A stretch of 64,000 nucleotides of DNA from Ureaplasma urealyticum serovar 8 str. ATCC 27618. GTDB lineage: Bacteria > Bacillota_I > Bacilli_A > Mycoplasmatales > Mycoplasmoidaceae. Positions 2,887 through 32,723 of this stretch are shown here, piece by piece. The stretch lies in assembly GCF_000169535.1 (NCBI RefSeq), contig NZ_AAYN02000002.1, positions 488,642 to 552,641 of the forward strand, read 5' to 3'. A program made the position numbers and the translations under genes. The stretch's first letter is position 1, and every line of letters begins with the position of its first letter. A model generated the notes under the pieces. It did not search any database. It had not been told where the DNA came from and saw only the letters and a list, made by a program, of their open reading frames with translations.

Positions 2887-4335
2887 TTATTTTTTAGTTG
2901 TTGGATCAACTCAATTTAAAACTTGTTTACCATTAACTGAATGTAATTTATTTGTTTCACGATCATAAAATTTAAAATCAGTTTGTGAACGAGAACGATT
3001 TGTATCACCACGTTCTGTTTCTACACGTTTTAAGATTTCTTTGCCCTCACCTATACTTTCTTTAAAGCTTCTATTGATATGTGAATTATTACCTGCTAGA
3101 GCATATAATTTCATGCCAGCAAGATTTTGAGTTTTGCCACTAAATTCTTCGAATTTTGTTTTTGTATCATCAACTAAATCAACTAAAAAACCAGGTACTT
3201 TAGGATATGTTTTACCTTGTTTGTTTGTAAATGAAGAATAATCTGGTTGAATTCCTAAAGCAACACAATGATCTCATAAGTTATAGAAGAAAATACCGAA
3301 ATTTTGATATTTTTCATCTTTATTATTTTTTGGACGAATGTGTTTTAGTGTTTGTTTTGTTGGTAGAGTTCAATCAAGTTTAACAGTTGCTAATTCGCTA
3401 TCACTTACTCCTAATTTTTTGGCAAATGATTGTATTAAACGCACTGTTCCAATTGGCCCTCAAATTGAACTATATTCAATTTGGAAATCAACTGGAATAA
3501 TTTTGTCATTATTAACTGTTGATTTAAAGAAGCTTTCAAATTGTGACTTTGTAGTTTCACCAGCAAGTTTATTTGAATCATAGTTGTAGAAAACATAATC
3601 AGCTGTTCTATAAAAAGCTTCTTGCATTGACAACATTCAATCAAAATCATTTTTTGATGCATTATTTTGAGCTGCACCAATTCCATGTCAGTTATCAAAG
3701 TATTTATCAGCTTTATGATTTTTTGGTTTTGGGAAACGTAAACCTAATCCTGGAACATTAGCATCATCTGGTTGAGAATATAATAAAGGGAATAAATCTT
3801 GTTGTTGGAAATAGTATAAATCTAATTTAGACTTATCTGAACTATCAAATTCTTGAGTTGATTCTGCTCATAAAACAGTTGTGTTATTATCTCTTAATTT
3901 TTTAATAGTTGGTAAATTAGCAACTTTTCTAACATATTCACGAACTTTAGCGTTAATATCTTTTGCATATTCTAAAAAGCTTGATTTTCCACTATTTTTT
4001 AAAGGTTCGTGTGATGTAATTTCATAACCTGCTTCATCTAATGATTTTGCAAACATTTCAAATGCTTTATATGGATCTGTTAGCGTATTAAAGAATTGGC
4101 TATTTTCATTACTTTCACTTAATTCATATTTTTCACTAACTTCAATAGCGCTTTGCTTTTGAGTGCTTTTTGTAATTAGTTTATTAATTGTTGTTTTGCC
4201 CTCTTTTTTAATATCATTATTATCATTATTTGTTTTACTACATGCTGTAGCAACTGCAATTGTTGAAACGAAAATTGTTGAAACGCCCATAAATAAAGCG
4301 ATCAACGACTTTTTGTTTAATTTTTTCTTAAACAT
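2887..4335 (-). CDS. Lipoprotein, presumed substrate-binding subunit of the FecCD-type importer
   Basis: A 482-aa lipoprotein with a positively charged start (MFKKKLNKKS), a hydrophobic segment and a lipobox ending in Cys32 (VATAC), so it should be anchored on the outer face of the membrane. Position directly upstream of two FecCD permeases, with 15-base spacing, is the main evidence that it is the FecB/FhuD-like binding protein. The mature part is long for the family and I do not see a decisive binding motif. Trp residues encoded by TGA interrupt it in the standard code. GAGG lies upstream of the ATG. Confidence 0.75.
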
Positions 4336-4457
4336 ATTTTATTAACCTCATAAAGATTTTTATTAAAATTTACTAAAAAATGGGTGTTCTATTTTTTATA
4401 CAAAACACACAAAAGTAATTGTAATATCAAAAATCAATATGTTATGTTTTTATATAC

Positions 4458-5612
<1,155 letters not shown>

Positions 5613-5630
5613 TCACCATTTTTTAACTAT

Positions 5631-5646
5631 TATAATATTATATAAT
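5631..5646 (+). promoter_or_regulatory. Candidate -10 elements between mnmA and the secreted protein gene
   Basis: Two TATAAT hexamers (5631-5636 and 5641-5646) lie in the 113-base divergent gap. They fit a promoter for the gene at 5714. No convincing -35 box was seen, as is common in mollicutes. Confidence 0.4.
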
Positions 5647-5713
5647 TTTTAGATAGTGAATTCTTGAAGTAAGAATTTATTTATTAAAACATTAATTTAA
5701 GGGGTTATATTAA

Positions 5714-6610
5714 ATGAAAAAAGCAATTTTAATTTCTATTGCATCTTTAGTTGGAGTTAGTGCAATTGTTGCAACTAGTACTTTTTTATCATTATCAGCT
5801 AAAACAGATGTTTATGCAAAATCAATCCAAGCAAGTAGTGTTAATCAAAGTTTAAATTACACTAATTTGTCAAATGCTAATGTAGGAATTAAAGAAATGC
5901 TTTTAGGTACTAAAAAAATTAATAATGGAAATTATGTTTTATACATTGGTACACAATCAAATCTTGACAATTTAGATTTTGTTTATAGCAATCAAGCAAA
6001 TCATATTAATTCAGTTAATGATTTACAATACAATGATAATCTTAATTTTAATGGATCATTATCAAAAACAATCAATAATGTTAAAAATTATGCTGACAAA
6101 GATATTTATGAACATGTTCCACAATTTTATAGTTTTATTGATTTAATAAATAGTGATGTTTTTAAACAAAAACAAGAATATGAAAATTTAATTAAACAAA
6201 ACAAATCAAGCACTATTAAAGAGGATCAAAATTGAGCTAATAATGCTCCAGCTGAATACTCTTTTGATGTTAACAAAAAATATAAAGATAAAAATGGCAA
6301 AGAAGTTTATTTCCGTAATGATGCTCAAGCTATTAAATTTCGTGAAATTTTAAATTTCTTAAAAACTTATTTATCAAAAGAAAAATTAGTTGAACTAAGT
6401 GCAACAAAAACTCCTGGAATTGTCTTATTTTATTCACAAGATAACCTTAGCAAAGGTCCACGAGTTTATGCTAGTTCTAAAACATATGATCAATCAAAAA
6501 ATGAACGCAAAGAATCATATCCATCAGGTAATAATGTATATAATTCTGCACAACCTGAATTTGGCGGAGATTTAAACGCTGCGATTTATAGCATTTATGG
6601 TAAAAAATAA
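5714..6610 (+). CDS. Secreted or membrane-anchored protein, unrecognised
   Basis: A 298-aa protein with an N-terminal signal-like segment (MKKAILISIASLVGVS and on to about residue 28) that lacks a lipobox cysteine, so it is either cleaved and secreted or held by an uncleaved anchor. The mature region is polar, rich in Asn, Lys and Tyr. The start has GGGG (5700-5704) about nine bases upstream. One TGA (Trp) interrupts it in the standard code. I recognise no domain. It has its own strong terminator, so it is probably expressed as a single gene. Confidence 0.8.
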
Positions 6611-6622
6611 TTAAAAAACTAG

Positions 6623-6680
6623 AAAATAAAAACAAGGCTTAACGTTTCTTTGTAAAAATGTTAGACTTGTTTTTATTTTT
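6623..6680. terminator. Bidirectional terminator
   Basis: Long hairpin with outer arms AAAATAAAAACAAG (6623-6636) and CTTGTTTTTATTTT (6666-6679), plus a partly paired inner GCTTAAC / TGTTAGA stem. A-rich on one side and T-rich on the other, so it can end transcripts from both directions. Confidence 0.8.
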
Positions 6681-6693
6681 ATACTTGACTTTC

Positions 6694-6711
6694 TATATAT
6701 ATATATATATA
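6694..6711. repeat. Dinucleotide repeat (TA)9
   Basis: Uninterrupted (TA)9 in the intergenic stretch between two converging genes, downstream of the terminator at 6623-6680. It is not in front of any gene I can support. Confidence 0.9.
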
Positions 6712-6785
6712 ATGTACTTGTATAAAAAATAAAATGATTGAAATTGTTAATGTTTGAATCAATTTATAACAGTATAAACAAATAA

Positions 6786-6802
6786 ACTAGTTACGTGCTA
6801 GT
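6786..6802 (-). terminator. Short inverted repeat after the transposase remnant
   Basis: ACTAG / CTAGT arms with a 7-base loop, flanked by partly complementary AAACAA and TTGTTT. It lies just past the stop of the minus-strand gene ending at 6809 and could be a weak terminator. Confidence 0.4.
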
Positions 6803-6808
6803 CTTGTT

Positions 6809-7606
6809 TTATTTCAAAATACGTTTGTTAATAAAAATAAAACGAGCACGTTCAAAATCGTTTGAACTATGATTTTTTAGCGACATTAATAATTCATCAT
6901 CATTTTTAAATAAGATTTTATAACTAATCACTTGGGGATGATGCATAGCAATTTTTGCAATAATGTCATTCCATCATTTGTTTTGTAAATTATTAATAAC
7001 TCAAAAACCTAAAATAGTAAGCTGTTTATCTAAGCTTTTGGTAATTACAATTGTTAAATATTTATTAGTTGATAAACTAAACCCATCAATAAAGATTTGA
7101 TCAACATCAATATTATTTAATTCTTGCTTTTTATTTTTTAAATAATCATAAACTTTTAAAGCAATTTCATTGCGTAATTTATCAATGGTTTTATCGTTAT
7201 AAATATCATAAAAGTCTTCTAGAATCTTTTCGTATTCGTTTAGTTGTAAATTATTAATACCTAATGATAATAAACGATATTCAAAGCGTGAAATATCTAC
7301 TTGGTATTTAGAAATGATTTTTGATTCAAAAGCACCATTTCGATCACGTGGAATATTAACTAAAATTTTTAAATCATTCATATGTAATTGTTTTTTAGAA
7401 AAACCATTACGATAATTTCGAGAACTATTACTTAAATAACGTTCAAATCGTTCGTAGTTTAAATGATATTTCATTTCAATTGTTAAAATATATTCTAAGA
7501 AAGTTCTTGTGAAGTTACTAATATAATCATCAAGGATAGGTTTGTATAAATATTCGTATTTTTTAATTAACTTTTCTAGAATTGTAAAAATATTTTTTTT
7601 GTCCAT
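6809..7606 (-). pseudogene. Truncated IS256/mutator-type transposase
   Basis: An intact 265-aa frame that resembles the N-terminal two thirds of IS256-family transposases: RNYRNGFSKKQL, then VNIPRDRNGAFESKII, then the first catalytic-domain block IDGFSLSTNKYLTIVITK and ILGFWV. Family members are usually about 390-400 aa. The C-terminal half with the DG...Gl..a and C..H..RN blocks and the last acidic residue is missing, and the tail instead ends in unrelated basic sequence. It is therefore unlikely to transpose. The start is the ATG at 7606 because GGAG lies six bases upstream; an in-frame ATG at 7618 overlaps that site. No terminal inverted repeats were found. Confidence 0.7.
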
Positions 7607-7640
7607 GAAAAACTCCATTGCAAAATAACAATGTTTAAAA

Positions 7641-7659
7641 TTAATTAATTAATTAATTA
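7641..7659. repeat. Tetranucleotide repeat (TTAA)n
   Basis: About five tandem TTAA units immediately upstream of the transposase remnant and downstream of plsY. It is short and its role is unclear. Confidence 0.8.
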
Positions 7660-7692
7660 TTAAATTGTTTAGCGAATTACTTGTTAATGTTG

Positions 7693-8451
7693 CTAAATAT
7701 TATTTTTTGGTTTTGGTTGAAATAAAAATGTTTTGCGTTCTTGCTTTGTAGCAATACTCAAAATATTTGTTTTGTGGCGATATATTAATATGCTTGCACT
7801 AATTAACAAGAATAATCAAACATACCATGTGCCTTTTATAACATGATTTAAATCAAATAAATATTCGACAAAATGTTCATTGTAGTATGGAATGTAATTG
7901 ATTCCAGGAATTAAAACTAAAAAACAAGTTATGGTTGCTGTAATCATAGCAGATAATGACATATATTTAGTGATTAATAAAATAATTAATAACGTTATAA
8001 TTCCAATTACTGCAACAATTGGGTCAATTGTAATCAAAAAACCACCATAAGATGCAACACCTTTGCCTCCTTGAAATTTAAAGAAAATTGGGTAACAATG
8101 ACCAATAATAGTAAATATACCTCCAAAATAAACTAAAATCGCTTGATTAAAACCATTACTTAAAACAAATGGTGCGTTTAGAGCATATTTGTAAATAATG
8201 TATGTTAAACTAATGGTAATGATTGGTTTAACAATATCTAAAAAGAGTGTTAATATACCTAACTTTTTACCATAAACTCGTGTCATGTTAGTCATACCTG
8301 CGTTTTTAGAAGCAAAATGACGAATATCTTGTTTTTTAAGAAGTAGTGATAAAATGATACTTGCATTTAAACTACCTATTAAATAAGAATATAAAGGAGA
8401 AATGATTAATGTCAGAATATAAGCCATGGCGACACTATAAACTTGATCCAT
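7693..8451 (-). CDS. plsY: Glycerol-3-phosphate acyltransferase PlsY
   Basis: A 252-aa membrane enzyme that transfers the acyl group from acyl-phosphate to glycerol-3-phosphate, the first step of phospholipid synthesis. All three PlsY active-site blocks are visible: GSLNASIILS near residue 26, KNAGMTNMTRVYGKKLG near 50, and GHCYPIFFKFQGGKGVAS near 125. Several hydrophobic segments surround them. The start has AAGGAG five bases upstream of the ATG. The C-terminal tail is basic. One TGA Trp codon near the end (position about 7816) hides the last 40 residues in the standard code. Confidence 0.95.
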
Positions 8452-8620
8452 AAAAACTCCTTTCTTTTTAATTAATTCACATTATAGTTTTAAAGCAAAT
8501 GTTTAAAAAATAAATTTTCCATATTTGCCATATTAAATATAGCACACAACTTCAATTTTAAAAATGGAAAAATAAAAATTAATATAAGCATAAAATTCAA
8601 TTTTGCAATGGTTTTTTGTC

Positions 8621-26470: not shown

Positions 26471-27199
26471 ATGAAAACAATTAATTTAAAAAAAGAATTT
26501 ATTCAATATTGCTCCAGTTTAAAAACACAAGATTTTGTTCAACAATATTTTAATGATGATCAACTAAAAGAAAAATTACTAAAAAATCGTTTAGTTGGAT
26601 TAATTAGTGTAATTGTTGGTTTTGTAATTGGTGTAGCAATTATAATTTGTGGGGCTTTTGTTAATAAAGGTAATGGGGCAAATTTAAATAGTGGAGCAAT
26701 TGTTTGCATTATTATAGGAATTTTTATTTTTTTATGTTTACTAATTCCTTACTCCATTGTTGCTAATCAAAATAAAAAAATAATGCATGATTATATTGAA
26801 CATCATTTTAATGAAGCTAATGTTGCTCAACTTATTAAAAAAATTAGTACTTTTTTCCAAGAATTTAGATTATTATCAGGGAGTTTTTTAAATTTTAAAC
26901 AAAGTAGTCAAGTTATTAATGTTAATTATTGTAATGTTCAATATAGTTTAATTTACTCGTTCCAACCACAGCCACAAGTGCAATTAATGAAAAATAATAA
27001 CAGTAATAAAATTAGTTCTAAAGAATGAGATTTAAAAGGTAATTATGATTTAAAAATTTATGAACTGCAAAAATGAAATGCAGGTTTTTCTAAATTTTAT
27101 TTTGAAAATAATGTTGAATCAATTGCTTTTCAAATTGAAACAAAACTAGGAACAATTATTAATGACTTTGAAGAATTATTAATTAAAGGTGGATTTTAG
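26471..27199 (+). CDS. Two-TM membrane protein, unrecognised
   Basis: A 242-aa protein with a short N-terminal cytoplasmic part, two hydrophobic helices at about 41-64 and 76-96, and a larger C-terminal soluble domain. It could belong to the DUF3137-like group of mollicute membrane proteins, but I am not certain. Its stop lies three bases before the hrcA ATG, so it is the first gene of the hrcA transcription unit. One or two TGA Trp codons hide the C-terminal 57 residues in the standard code. Confidence 0.75.
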
Positions 27200-27202
27200 T
27201 TC

Positions 27203-28276
27203 ATGAAAAACAATAAAATATTACAAGAACAAATAATAGAACCAAAACTAAGTGATCGCCAAAAAAAAGTATTAAAGTCTATTATTGATGAATACACAAT
27301 TACAGCAACACCTGTTTCATCAAAACTTTTAGTGCAAAAAGAATTTCAAGACCAATCGTCTGCGACAATTCGTAATGAAATGATGTTACTTGAAAAATTT
27401 GGTTTTATTGAAAAACAGCATATTAGTGGTGGACGTGTTCCATCATTAAAAGGATATGATTTTTATAATAAAAATTTAATTAATAAAAATAACGATGTTT
27501 CTGATAATTTTAAAATGCGTTTACACAAAATTTTAAGCAAACGTTATTCTAATATTGATGAAATTCTAAATGCTGCAGTAAGCATTATTAATGAAACTAC
27601 ACAACTGCCAGCTGTTGTTACAAAATCAAGTAGTGAAGAATTACTAAAACGCATTGATTTAGTAAAAATAAATGATAATTCTGCATTAGTATTAATTGTA
27701 ACTTCAAGTGAAAACATTTTAACCCATTCAATTAAACTTGATAAAAACACCAACTTTAATGATTTACAAACTTGCTTTAGTGTTTTAGATGAACGTTTAG
27801 TTGATACTAAATTAAGTTTAATTAGTTCTAAATTAGACTTAATTGTTGATATTGTTCGTGCTAAAATCGAAGAAGCAGAATATTACTTTAGTAAAATTGT
27901 CCATCGTGTATTTGATTTCTATGCTCACAAACCTACTGTTAATTCTAAAACTTATGGTGTTAAGTATTTAACTAAACATTCTGAATTTGAAGATCAACAA
28001 AAACTAAATGATTTACTAAATTTATTAGAAGATAGTACAATTTGACAACAAATTGCTTTAAATAAAAAAACTGATGGCTTAGCAAAGATTATGTTAGGTA
28101 ATGAAATTGGTCATGAGCATTTAGCAATTGCTACTGCTCAAATTAATTTACCAAATACTAATCGTCAAATTACAGTTGTAGGACCAACAAGAATGGATTA
28201 TGCAAAAATCAAAGCTTTATTAGATTTTTTAAAAATTGAAGTTGAAAAGATTTTAGGATCATCAAATGAACATTAA
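27203..28276 (+). CDS. hrcA: Heat-inducible transcription repressor HrcA
   Basis: A 357-aa repressor of chaperone genes. Winged-helix DNA-binding domain at about 15-85 ([19 protein letters not shown], then [20 protein letters not shown] and [14 protein letters not shown]), a GAF-like middle, and the C-terminal [13 protein letters not shown]...[12 protein letters not shown] typical of HrcA. It binds CIRCE operators and depends on GroEL or DnaK for activity in other bacteria. A near-perfect CIRCE is found in this window at 11794-11820, upstream of dnaJ. I see no CIRCE in front of hrcA itself. Confidence 0.95.
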
Positions 28277-28784
28277 AAAAATAAAACAAGAATTTAGCTT
28301 TAGTTATGAGTTAATTGAAAAAGAAATCAAAAACATTATTAAAAATTGAGCAATGTTTAAAAATGAATGAGAATTTTTAATGGCAACAATTTATTTTAGT
28401 TCCAAGGCAATTTTTAGAGAAATATCATTAAATAATTGAAAAAAATTTAGTAGTTATGCTAATGAAATTTTTTTAGAAATAAATGCTAAAAACAACCCTT
28501 TACAAACATTTGATTTAGATTATTGATATTTAGAAATTAAAAAATTAATCCAAGAATTAAGCATTAGCAATCATTTATTAAATGAACAATTAGAACAAAT
28601 TTATTTAAAATTTTTAATATTTTACTGACATAATATTACAATTCCAAAAACTTATGAAATTGGTGATTTTAGCATTGTTTGTTTACGTAATAAAGCACTT
28701 GTTGATTGCATGCAAATTTTACAAGAATATTATCATATAAATGTTGACATTTTAATTGACTTAGTTATTAAACAAATTAAATAA
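28266..28784 (+). CDS. Conserved hypothetical protein
   Basis: A 172-aa soluble, helix-rich and Trp-rich protein; six Trp are TGA-encoded, so it is invisible as a single frame in the standard code. Its ATG overlaps the last 11 bases of hrcA, which supports translation coupling. It is followed after 15 bases (containing AAGGAG) by the DUF402-like gene. No domain recognised. Confidence 0.75.
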
Positions 28785-30345: not shown

Positions 30346-30429
30346 AATATATAATTATTATGTTGAATAATGATTTCAAATGTAATTTGAAACATTATTT
30401 TTAACATTTTAAATAAAAAGGATAAACTT

Positions 30430-32166
30430 ATGCCTAAAAAATTTAAAAAATGATTTTTATGAATTTCATTAACACTAGTTTCAACTACGACTTTAATTAG
30501 TACATTAGTAAGTTGTGCACAACAAAATAAAATTAGTAAATCAGATTTGTTTGATTTTAGTGAACAAGAACCAACACAATGAGAAAAAGAGATTATTGAT
30601 TCAGCTAAAAACAAAAATCCTACATTTCATATTAATGAATGAAATGCATCATTTGCGTATTTACAAGAATTTAATGCTATTATTGGTGAACTTGAAGCTA
30701 AAAAAGATAATTTAAATAGTAATGATTTTTCAAAAGCTAAAACTAATAAAATCATTACTTTTATTCCTTATGTTGAATTTGATTCTAATAAGTATTTAGG
30801 AAATCAAATAATTTCTGATAATACAAGAGTTAATTGACCATCTATTATTAGTCAATACACTAATAACAAACAACATGATTTAATGGCATTTACTAATGAT
30901 TTATTAATTTATTCTAATTTAAAACAAACACCTAAATATCAAGTAGATAATAAAGATTTAAAAGAAGACTTTGTTAGAAACAATAATTGATTAAATGAAA
31001 ATATTGATTATCATTTAAGTATTTTTAAAGATATTAAATATGATTTTTATTTAAGTCATTGACTATATCAATATTGAATTGATCAAAATCGTTTAGATGT
31101 TGTTTTAAAATTAATTTATCATGCTAATAAAATAATTTTATACCCAGATGGTAATGCTGAATTATATTATGTAGCTAATTATTATGCACAAGCAGTTAAG
31201 AATTTAATTAGTAAAGATCCACATTTATCAAAACAAAAGATTGATGATCATTTACATAATTTCATTAATATGAAATCATTTAAAGAAGCAAAAAACTATT
31301 TTAGTTCAAAATTAAATAATAATAAAGATTGATTAACAGTTTTTGTTTTAAATAAATTATTTAAAATTTTTGCAATTGATGAGAGTTGAGTAGACTGTGA
31401 TTATTTTAAATTTAGTAAAGAATTCATGCCTAAATCATATAAAATTCGTACTAATTATGCTAATGTGCTAAATTCACTAAATTTATCATTAACTGCTAAA
31501 AATCAATTTAAAAAAAATTTTGAATATGCATTTAGAATGCATAATAAAACATTTTTAGATTTTATTGTTGATGGTAAACAATATTATGATCCTAAAAAGC
31601 AAAACTTAATTTTTATGGGTTCTTCACTATTTAAAGATAATGTTTTAAAAGATCGTAAAATTGTTAAACAAGAATTACAACAATGAGCACTAAAAATTAA
31701 AAACAAATATCCTAATGCTAATTACTTTTTTAAATTACATCCTATTTATAATCAAAATCAAGTATTAGATTACATTCAAGAAATCACTAACGGAATCTTT
31801 AAACCAATTATTTTGGATGCAAAAACACCTTGAGAAAATATCTTATTAAGAGATTATTTATCAATTAAAAATAACAAAGCAGTTTTATTTAAAGACAAAA
31901 ACACACCCAATTTTTCATTATGAGGTTTTCAACCAACAACATCAGCACTTCTAACGAGTTTTGATTTTATTCGTAATAATACTAAACTAACAAATGATGA
32001 AGTACAATCAATTATAGGTTTTGATAATTTTTTAGTCGGTAAAAACTATGATATTTTAAGACGAGATTATGAACCAAATAAAGATTATACAAATCAAAAT
32101 TTACAAATTTTAGAAAGAACATATGGTCAATTAATTTTTGCAAAAATTTTAAAAAAATTCTATTAA
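30430..32166 (+). CDS. Lipoprotein resembling GT80 sialyltransferases
   Basis: A 578-aa lipoprotein, lipobox Cys29 (STLVSC), AAGGAT before the ATG. The mature part shows the three landmarks of GT80 (PmST1-like, PF11477-type) sialyltransferases in the correct order: an acidic-Gly motif LYPDGNAELYYV (residues 237-248; compare LYDDGxxEYV), FKLHP at 434-438 (compare FKGHP, with the His that binds CMP), and GFQPTTSALLTSF from 499 (compare the GxxSSLYFS block). The TPWENIL segment between the last two fits the PANISFEVLM region. The middle Asp of the first motif is Pro here, so activity is uncertain. It stands between a palindrome and converging genes. Confidence 0.6.
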
Positions 32167-32172
32167 TTATTT

Positions 32173-32723
32173 TTATAAATATGGATGTTTAAAACTTACT
32201 TTAACTCTAACTTCTTTAGTTTTAAAATCTGATTGATTACTAAATTCTATTTTATCAACAACTACATTATCGACTTTTGTTTCTAAATCTGCTACTTCAT
32301 ATTTTGGTTCTATTGTTAATACTTGACCAATTGGGTTTAAAATACCTTCTTTATTAATGATTGATAATTGTTCACCTTTTTTTAGTTCAAGAGGTAGTTT
32401 AATATAAACTTTGTTATCTTTAATTAAACCAACTGTACTCTGATGGGTTGTTTTTTTATTACTATCAGTAATTGCAACATTAAAATTAAGATTTTTTAAT
32501 GCATCTTTTTTTTATTTTGCTTAATTTATCAAAATTAGTAATATTATAAACACCATAAAAACTTGTTTTATCAGAGTTAGTAGCAAATAAAAAACTATGC
32601 CTAACACTTTCAATTTTTGTTTGTTTTTTAGCATAAGATGATGCAATCGCAACCACACTAGTAGTTAATAAAACTCCACTTAATGACATTGTTAAAAAAT
32701 TTTTTGTTTTTCAATAATTTCAT
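32173..32723 (-). pseudogene. Frameshifted secreted-protein gene (phase-off or decayed)
   Basis: Two open segments meet at a homopolymer. Upstream (32689-32486) encodes a signal-like start MSLSGVLLTTSVVAIASSYA and polar sequence, then stops. Downstream, in the -1 frame, a clean 110-residue segment runs to a stop at 32173 (ends KVSFKHPYL). They join in frame if the A8 tract on the coding strand (32506-32513) loses one A, giving KLSKIKKDALKNLNFNV. The best start, ATG at 32723 (MKLLKNKKF), is also one base out of frame at an A6T6 tract. No family recognised. Confidence 0.6.

Follow-up and report, generated by a model that had tools for sequence, protein, structure and literature searches.

The locus considered here raises the question of whether a wall-less bacterium can move sialic acid outside its own cell. 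It lies in a 64,000-nucleotide stretch of Ureaplasma urealyticum DNA (the window, throughout), at 30430-32166 on the forward strand, where translation with code 4 gives a single open frame of 578 amino acids, its 13 TGA codons being decoded as tryptophan. By eye, AAGGAT stands just 5' of the start at 30430; an alternative in-frame ATG upstream, at 30370, would give a product of 598 residues. The gene is present as one copy in its own genome (G000; 881,828 bases in two contigs), and its product has no match to a Pfam or NCBIfam family. A sequence-only reading had taken this product for a surface lipoprotein with the landmarks of GT80 sialyltransferases, and on the evidence of family and fold we describe the gene as encoding a GT80-like surface lipoprotein.

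The location of the protein can be read from its N-terminus. A prolipoprotein signal peptide of the typical mollicute type is recognised by eye at 30430-30516 (+), with KKFKK in the n-region, a hydrophobic core and the lipobox LVSC, ending in STLVSC at Cys29, so that the lipoprotein assignment is borne out. Since the cell has a single membrane and no wall, a lipobox cysteine at this position would anchor the protein on the membrane's outer face and leave the remainder of it outside the cell. The leaders of 33 collected family sequences, among them the near-duplicate L004 and the window's own L001, were also surveyed by eye: 16 have a lipobox-like cysteine, three a hydrophobic leader without the cysteine and five a hydrophobic leader together with a C-terminal membrane helix, while four are leaderless and the N-termini of another five are unreadable. 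With the four rows that are linked to neuA set aside (these are taken up below), a lipobox or hydrophobic leader is found at all 24 readable N-termini.

With the single window protein as query and a threshold of E ≤0.1, relatives turned up in 15 of the 95 genomes of its family. One of these, L015, has only an N-terminal stretch in common with it (E 2.8e-5) and was left out of every alignment. Built from 14 members, the profile A1 extended the distribution to at least 47 of 298 Mycoplasmatales genomes and 8 of 46 genera at E 1e-5, a lower bound, as a clear carrier (G067) is missing from that list. Carriers include U. diversum, Mycoplasmopsis gallinarum, Mycoplasmopsis iners, Mycoplasma bradburyae and Mycoplasma testudineum; within its own genus the gene is patchy, being carried by 6 of 10 genomes. 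Judged by these relatives, the window protein is a member of a genuine mollicute family that carries no name. An origin or a reservoir in viruses was considered and rejected, no relative being present among the IMG/VR candidates. Tandem copies were seen in Mycoplasmopsis iners, with two in one locus (L022:5992-9794), and in L049 (G276).

The three motifs that first suggested a sialyltransferase are found at exactly the residues originally given: LYPDG at 237-241 (31138-31152, +), FKLHP at 434-438 (31729-31743, +) and GFQPTTSALLTSF, which begins at residue 499, GFQPTTS occupying residues 499-505 (31924-31944, +). When these motifs were combined in order and spacing with Glu469 (31834-31836, +), the pattern appeared in none of 20,000 shuffles of the window protein and in one of the 28 stop-to-stop frames of at least 300 amino acids in the window, the lipoprotein frame alone; this pattern is partly post hoc, Glu469 having been added once the family had been seen. 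Conservation is the better test of whether the motifs are more than chance. In the A1 alignment, whose members are 21-33% identical to the window protein, Asp240, Gly241, Lys435, His437, Pro438, Glu469 and Gly499 are all invariant. Across 30 family rows (the window protein included, and L001, L004, L005 and L007 omitted), Gly241, Lys435, His437, Pro438 and Glu469 are each present in all 30, and position 240 is Asp in 24, Glu in two and Asn in four. The full D/E-D/E-G motif is absent: the window protein has PDG and the family mostly SDG, the first acid being replaced by Pro, Ser or Thr and the second kept as Asp or Glu in 26 of the 30 rows.

The sequence-only reading had staked its case on a GT-B fold, and this is the fold predicted, with GT80 enzymes clearly ahead of all others as the nearest solved structures for two distant family members. 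An AlphaFold model of the window ectodomain, made with 19 relatives, reached a mean pLDDT of 79.7 and a pTM of 0.83, with model residues 1-10, 89-100, 119-125 and 135-155 poorly predicted. In a Foldseek search of the PDB, the first ten ranks were all GT80 sialyltransferases (E 9e-7 to 2e-5), followed by a plant glycosyltransferase (E 7e-4); the TM-scores by query length were modest, at 0.35-0.44. Structural alignment with VIA-align placed GT80 enzymes in rows 1-21 (Z 13.5-16.6, rmsd 4.2-4.6, 331-364 residues), the best being 2z4t_A (Z 16.6, rmsd 4.2, 357 residues aligned); rows 22-23 were a GT38 polysialyltransferase, at Z 10.4 (5wc6_A) and 10.1, and generic GT-B proteins stood at Z ≤9.2 among the remaining matches listed. 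Identity to the solved GT80 enzymes is 10-17% across the two programs. A second AlphaFold model, of the distant, C-terminally anchored member L032 (pLDDT 82.5, pTM 0.85), gave a similar picture in VIA-align, with GT80 in rows 1-18 (Z 15.0-16.1), GT38 in rows 19-20 (Z 10.3 and 10.1) and the rest at ≤8.4, and a weaker one in Foldseek, where two GT80 rows (1e-5 and 5e-5) were followed by a plant UGT at 2e-4. On these models, we have very little doubt that the family is related to GT80 by fold.

At the level of sequence the likeness to PmST1 by itself is weak. A search with the GT80 profile PF11477, proposed with the original observation, gave a negative result: the profile matches neither the window protein nor anything in the 95 genomes of its family, and is absent among the matches of the 14 A1 members. 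Against PDB sequences, the A1 profile returned only histone H3.3C (E 2.4), and the window protein as a single sequence returned nothing below E 0.08. In hhalign, the family profile scored 27.0 against PmST1, compared with a maximum of 22.4 in 60 shuffles, at a probability of only 3.8% with PmST1 entered as one sequence; a forced global alignment to PmST1 alone scored 1.1 and was nonsense. The local alignment pairs family positions 437, 438 and 469 with PmST1 311, 312 and 338, and its low-threshold extension pairs 240 with 141. Also by hhalign, IFMGSS at residues 394-399 (31609-31626, +) aligns with PmST1 IFTGTT, the first strand of the second Rossmann domain. The residue pairing rests on the local alignment, its extension and the fold; a joint MAFFT alignment misplaced PmST1 at the N-terminus and beyond Glu338. 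A firmer connection was provided by a bridging protein, the one match over the cut-off in a PF11477 search of 295 genomes of the phylum. This Bacilli protein (L060:6832-8682, -) has the motifs YTDGS, KGHP and SIPVE, and the family profile matches it at a probability of 91% (score 55.9; maximum of 60 shuffles 18.9), which strengthens the sequence link to PmST1. It combines an N-terminal coiled-coil-like stretch with a C-terminal GT80-like domain, and its gene lies in an apparent polysaccharide locus, in a genome of 1.3 Mb that belongs to the same class.

The correspondence with the active site of PmST1 is of particular interest. Asp141, His311, Glu338, Ser355 and Ser356 have been named as important in PM0188/PmST1 (PMC4202792); Asp141 is the suggested general base, its alanine mutant being 20,000-fold less active, His311 binds CMP-Neu5Ac, and Asp140, the first Asp of the motif, faces the protein core (PMC2169525). 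Asp240 aligns with Asp141, His437 and Pro438 with the CMP-binding His311 and Pro312, and Glu469 with Glu338, as had been anticipated for Asp240 and His437. Because the position that differs between PDG and DDG is the non-catalytic one and the equivalent of Asp141 is retained, the caution originally voiced over this replacement falls away. The serine motif fared less well: its probable counterpart lies in GFQPTTS, where Ser505, the residue originally singled out, gives way to Thr503-Thr504, by eye the more probable match for Ser355-Ser356, although no alignment pairs this PmST1 motif with family residues. In the window model, Asp240, His437, Glu469 and Thr503-Thr504 (model residues 211, 408, 440 and 474-475) each lie just past a strand or at the start of a helix, as would be expected of loops around a GT-B cleft.

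We therefore propose that the product is a glycosyltransferase of the GT-B type, lipid-anchored and facing outward, from a divergent family related to GT80. By homology, CMP-sialic acid would lie in the cleft between the two Rossmann domains, its CMP phosphate held by His437 and Pro438 and the nucleotide with the help of Glu469 and the Thr503-Thr504 loop, and Asp240 would activate an acceptor hydroxyl for inverting transfer. The likely products would be sialylated glycans or lipoproteins on the mycoplasma's own surface, and possibly altered host glycans too. We describe the family as GT80-like and do not file it under GT80, because it matches neither PF11477 nor the full D/E-D/E-G motif. The genome has no match to PF02348 (cytidylyltransferase), and an outward-facing enzyme in a cell with no CMP-sialate synthetase match has to draw its donor from the host. 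The reading we prefer, at a probability of about 0.62, is that of a divergent GT80-like sialyltransferase that faces outward and uses a host-supplied donor; here we infer activity, specificity for sialic acid, the host donor, the acceptor and the biological role. A host pool of donor is possible for the members outside the cell: the donor for extracellular sialylation can come from activated platelets (PMC6713473), and in gonococci the acquisition of host CMP-Neu5Ac is a workable strategy (PMC8092323).

The tie to sialic acid itself is provided by a neighbouring gene in another branch of the family. PF02348 matched in 46 of the same 298 genomes, 30 of them over the cut-off, and in four genomes of one genus (loci L051, L052, L053 and L056), probably gut mycoplasmas to judge from their relatives, a leaderless family homologue directly adjoins a CTP_transf_3 (NeuA-like) gene. 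In L051, an SDR gene (3663-4481), a Na+ symporter gene (4487-6193), the homologue (6186-7787) and the NeuA gene (7778-8464), all on the plus strand, overlap or nearly so. The order symporter, homologue, NeuA recurs in L052; in L056 the run is SDR, homologue, NeuA, and the symporter lies further downstream. The L051 symporter belongs to Pfam SSF and has as its best PDB match 5nv9 (E 7.5e-48), which we take to be the Proteus mirabilis sialic acid symporter SiaT. The L051 NeuA has as its best PDB match the CMP-NeuAc synthetase 1eyr (E 5.8e-32); its nearest NCBIfam model is PseF (E 1.3e-45, below that model's cut-off), so the sugar that it activates could be another nonulosonic acid. The four homologues match the exported family at an hhalign probability of 99.6%; in the tree they form a group, on a long branch, with exported members from their own genus (support 94/90). 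As they have no leader, they presumably act in the cell on imported, activated sialic acid, and these arrangements suggest that the cytoplasmic members transfer a sialic acid which the cell has taken up and activated. All four, which make the strongest functional connection to sialic acid, have Asn at the base position (PNG), the counterpart of a PmST1 D141N mutant; going by this residue, either these cousins would work differently or the analogy with PmST1 is blurred. In another mollicute genome (G072), three adjacent genes at L057:1-2628 (-) resemble neuA (fused to a second domain), neuB and neuD, the latter two identified by eye only, and synthesis of a nonulosonic acid is possible there.

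How the donor is obtained separates the preferred reading from a closely related one. Extracellular CMP could be used catalytically, in cycles of trans-sialylation that lift host sialic acid onto mycoplasma glycans and dispense with nucleotide-sugar synthesis. Reverse sialylation has been invoked to account for the sialidase and trans-sialidase activities of the GT80 enzymes PmST1 and Pd2,6ST (PMC10795189), the genome matches neither a CMP-sialate synthetase nor the BNR sialidase profile PF13088, and others have proposed, with no enzyme named, that host oligosaccharides are attached to mycoplasma lipoproteins extracellularly and with no need for nucleotide sugars (PMC4657876). However, the reverse reaction is a side activity in GT80 enzymes and a source of extracellular CMP was not found: a staphylococcal-type nuclease, the one nuclease type searched for, is not encoded in the genome. 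We regard this route as unlikely. Nor did sialidases suggest an association worth claiming, PF13088 being present in 8 of the 298 genomes and in two (G279 and G289) of the 47 carriers. The two routes share an active outward-facing sialyltransferase, which in this broad sense, reversible use included, we consider clearly probable. It is tempting, although we rate it slightly less likely than not, to go further and imagine a widespread outward-facing GT80-type mollicute family that coats the mycoplasma with host sialic acid, by way of either stray CMP-sialic acid or the CMP-cycled reaction.

The fold and mechanism could also be GT80-like with a different donor, be it a nonulosonic acid of another kind activated with CMP or some other nucleotide sugar. 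The departures from GT80 at the first acidic position and at the Ser-Ser motif, the 10-17% identity to solved GT80 enzymes and PseF as the nearest, sub-cut-off NCBIfam model of the linked NeuA are in keeping with this, but the CMP-binding His-Pro and Glu are invariant and the L051 NeuA finds its best PDB matches among CMP-NeuAc synthetases, and we think it improbable. A surface lectin or adhesin that retained the fold and bound sialoglycans or CMP but transferred nothing would suit an exported protein with no evident donor, and some mycoplasma adhesins do bind sialylated receptors (PMC4206340). A lectin, however, would have no reason to retain a general base, and Asp or Glu stands at the catalytic position in each of the 26 rows that are not linked to neuA; we consider such a pseudo-enzyme very improbable.

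Comparison with known systems sets the proposed sialyltransferase apart in several respects. The GT80 enzymes (PmST1/PM0188 and the Photobacterium 2,3- and 2,6-sialyltransferases) share with the family the GT-B fold, as its best structural match, the order of the motifs and the equivalents of Asp141, His311, Pro312 and Glu338. The family differs in escaping PF11477, in having Pro, Ser or Thr as the first acid of DDG and, by eye, Thr-Thr for Ser-Ser, and the window protein is about 150 residues longer than the PmST1 construct and anchored outside a wall-less cell. The GT38 polysialyltransferase (5wc6, 5wcn), a cytoplasmic capsule enzyme, is also GT-B with similar acidic-Gly and HP motifs; it is the second-best structural match at a Z of about 10, clearly below GT80 in both models (10.1-10.4 versus 13.5-16.6). 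Gonococcal Lst, of another family (GT52), sialylates the bacterial surface with host CMP-Neu5Ac, which the bacterium is unable to make; it was described as surface-exposed at first and later located in the cytoplasm (PMC8092323), whereas the mollicute lipoprotein is anchored and faces outward. An externally anchored sialyltransferase is unusual: the surface exposure claimed for Lst was later contradicted (PMC8092323). A further comparison is the glycosylation of lipoproteins in M. pulmonis and M. arthritidis, which likewise takes place outside the cell with host-derived sugar, but involves hexoses, with glycosidases proposed as catalysts (PMC4657876).

According to the same source, mycoplasma surface glycans are built with almost no recognised glycosyltransferases, and the extracellular enzymes that glycosylate lipoproteins had not been identified (PMC4657876). 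A conserved, sialyltransferase-like, outward-facing family in at least 47 of 298 genomes would be a concrete and assayable candidate. Among titles and the opening lines of abstracts, in a collection outside which most subscription journals fall, no mycoplasma GT80-type protein was found. The predicted fold and active-site residues suggest that these wall-less cells may transfer sialic acid at their exterior; if the wider reading of a coat of host sialic acid is true, host sugars would be mimicked without any nucleotide-sugar synthesis. Gonococci resist serum killing by means of sialic acid on their surface (PMC8092323), and the same could be asked of mollicutes.

The gene has hrcA, a DUF402 gene and a DUF3196 gene upstream of it, and a ferritin-like gene and the urease cluster downstream. 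The tested neighbours, from the gene at 26471 to ureG, have no match in the 16.7-kb Ureaplasma diversum locus, and we therefore claim no operon partner for the exported form. Downstream of hrcA, a 172-amino-acid frame at 28266-28784 (+) is without a Pfam match. Convergent with the lipoprotein gene, at 32170-32690 (-), is a short leader-bearing frame of 67 amino acids (32486-32689) that continues for about 110 residues in another frame. The break is close to eight consecutive T residues (32506-32513), which makes a surface gene that varies in phase or has decayed a possibility here.
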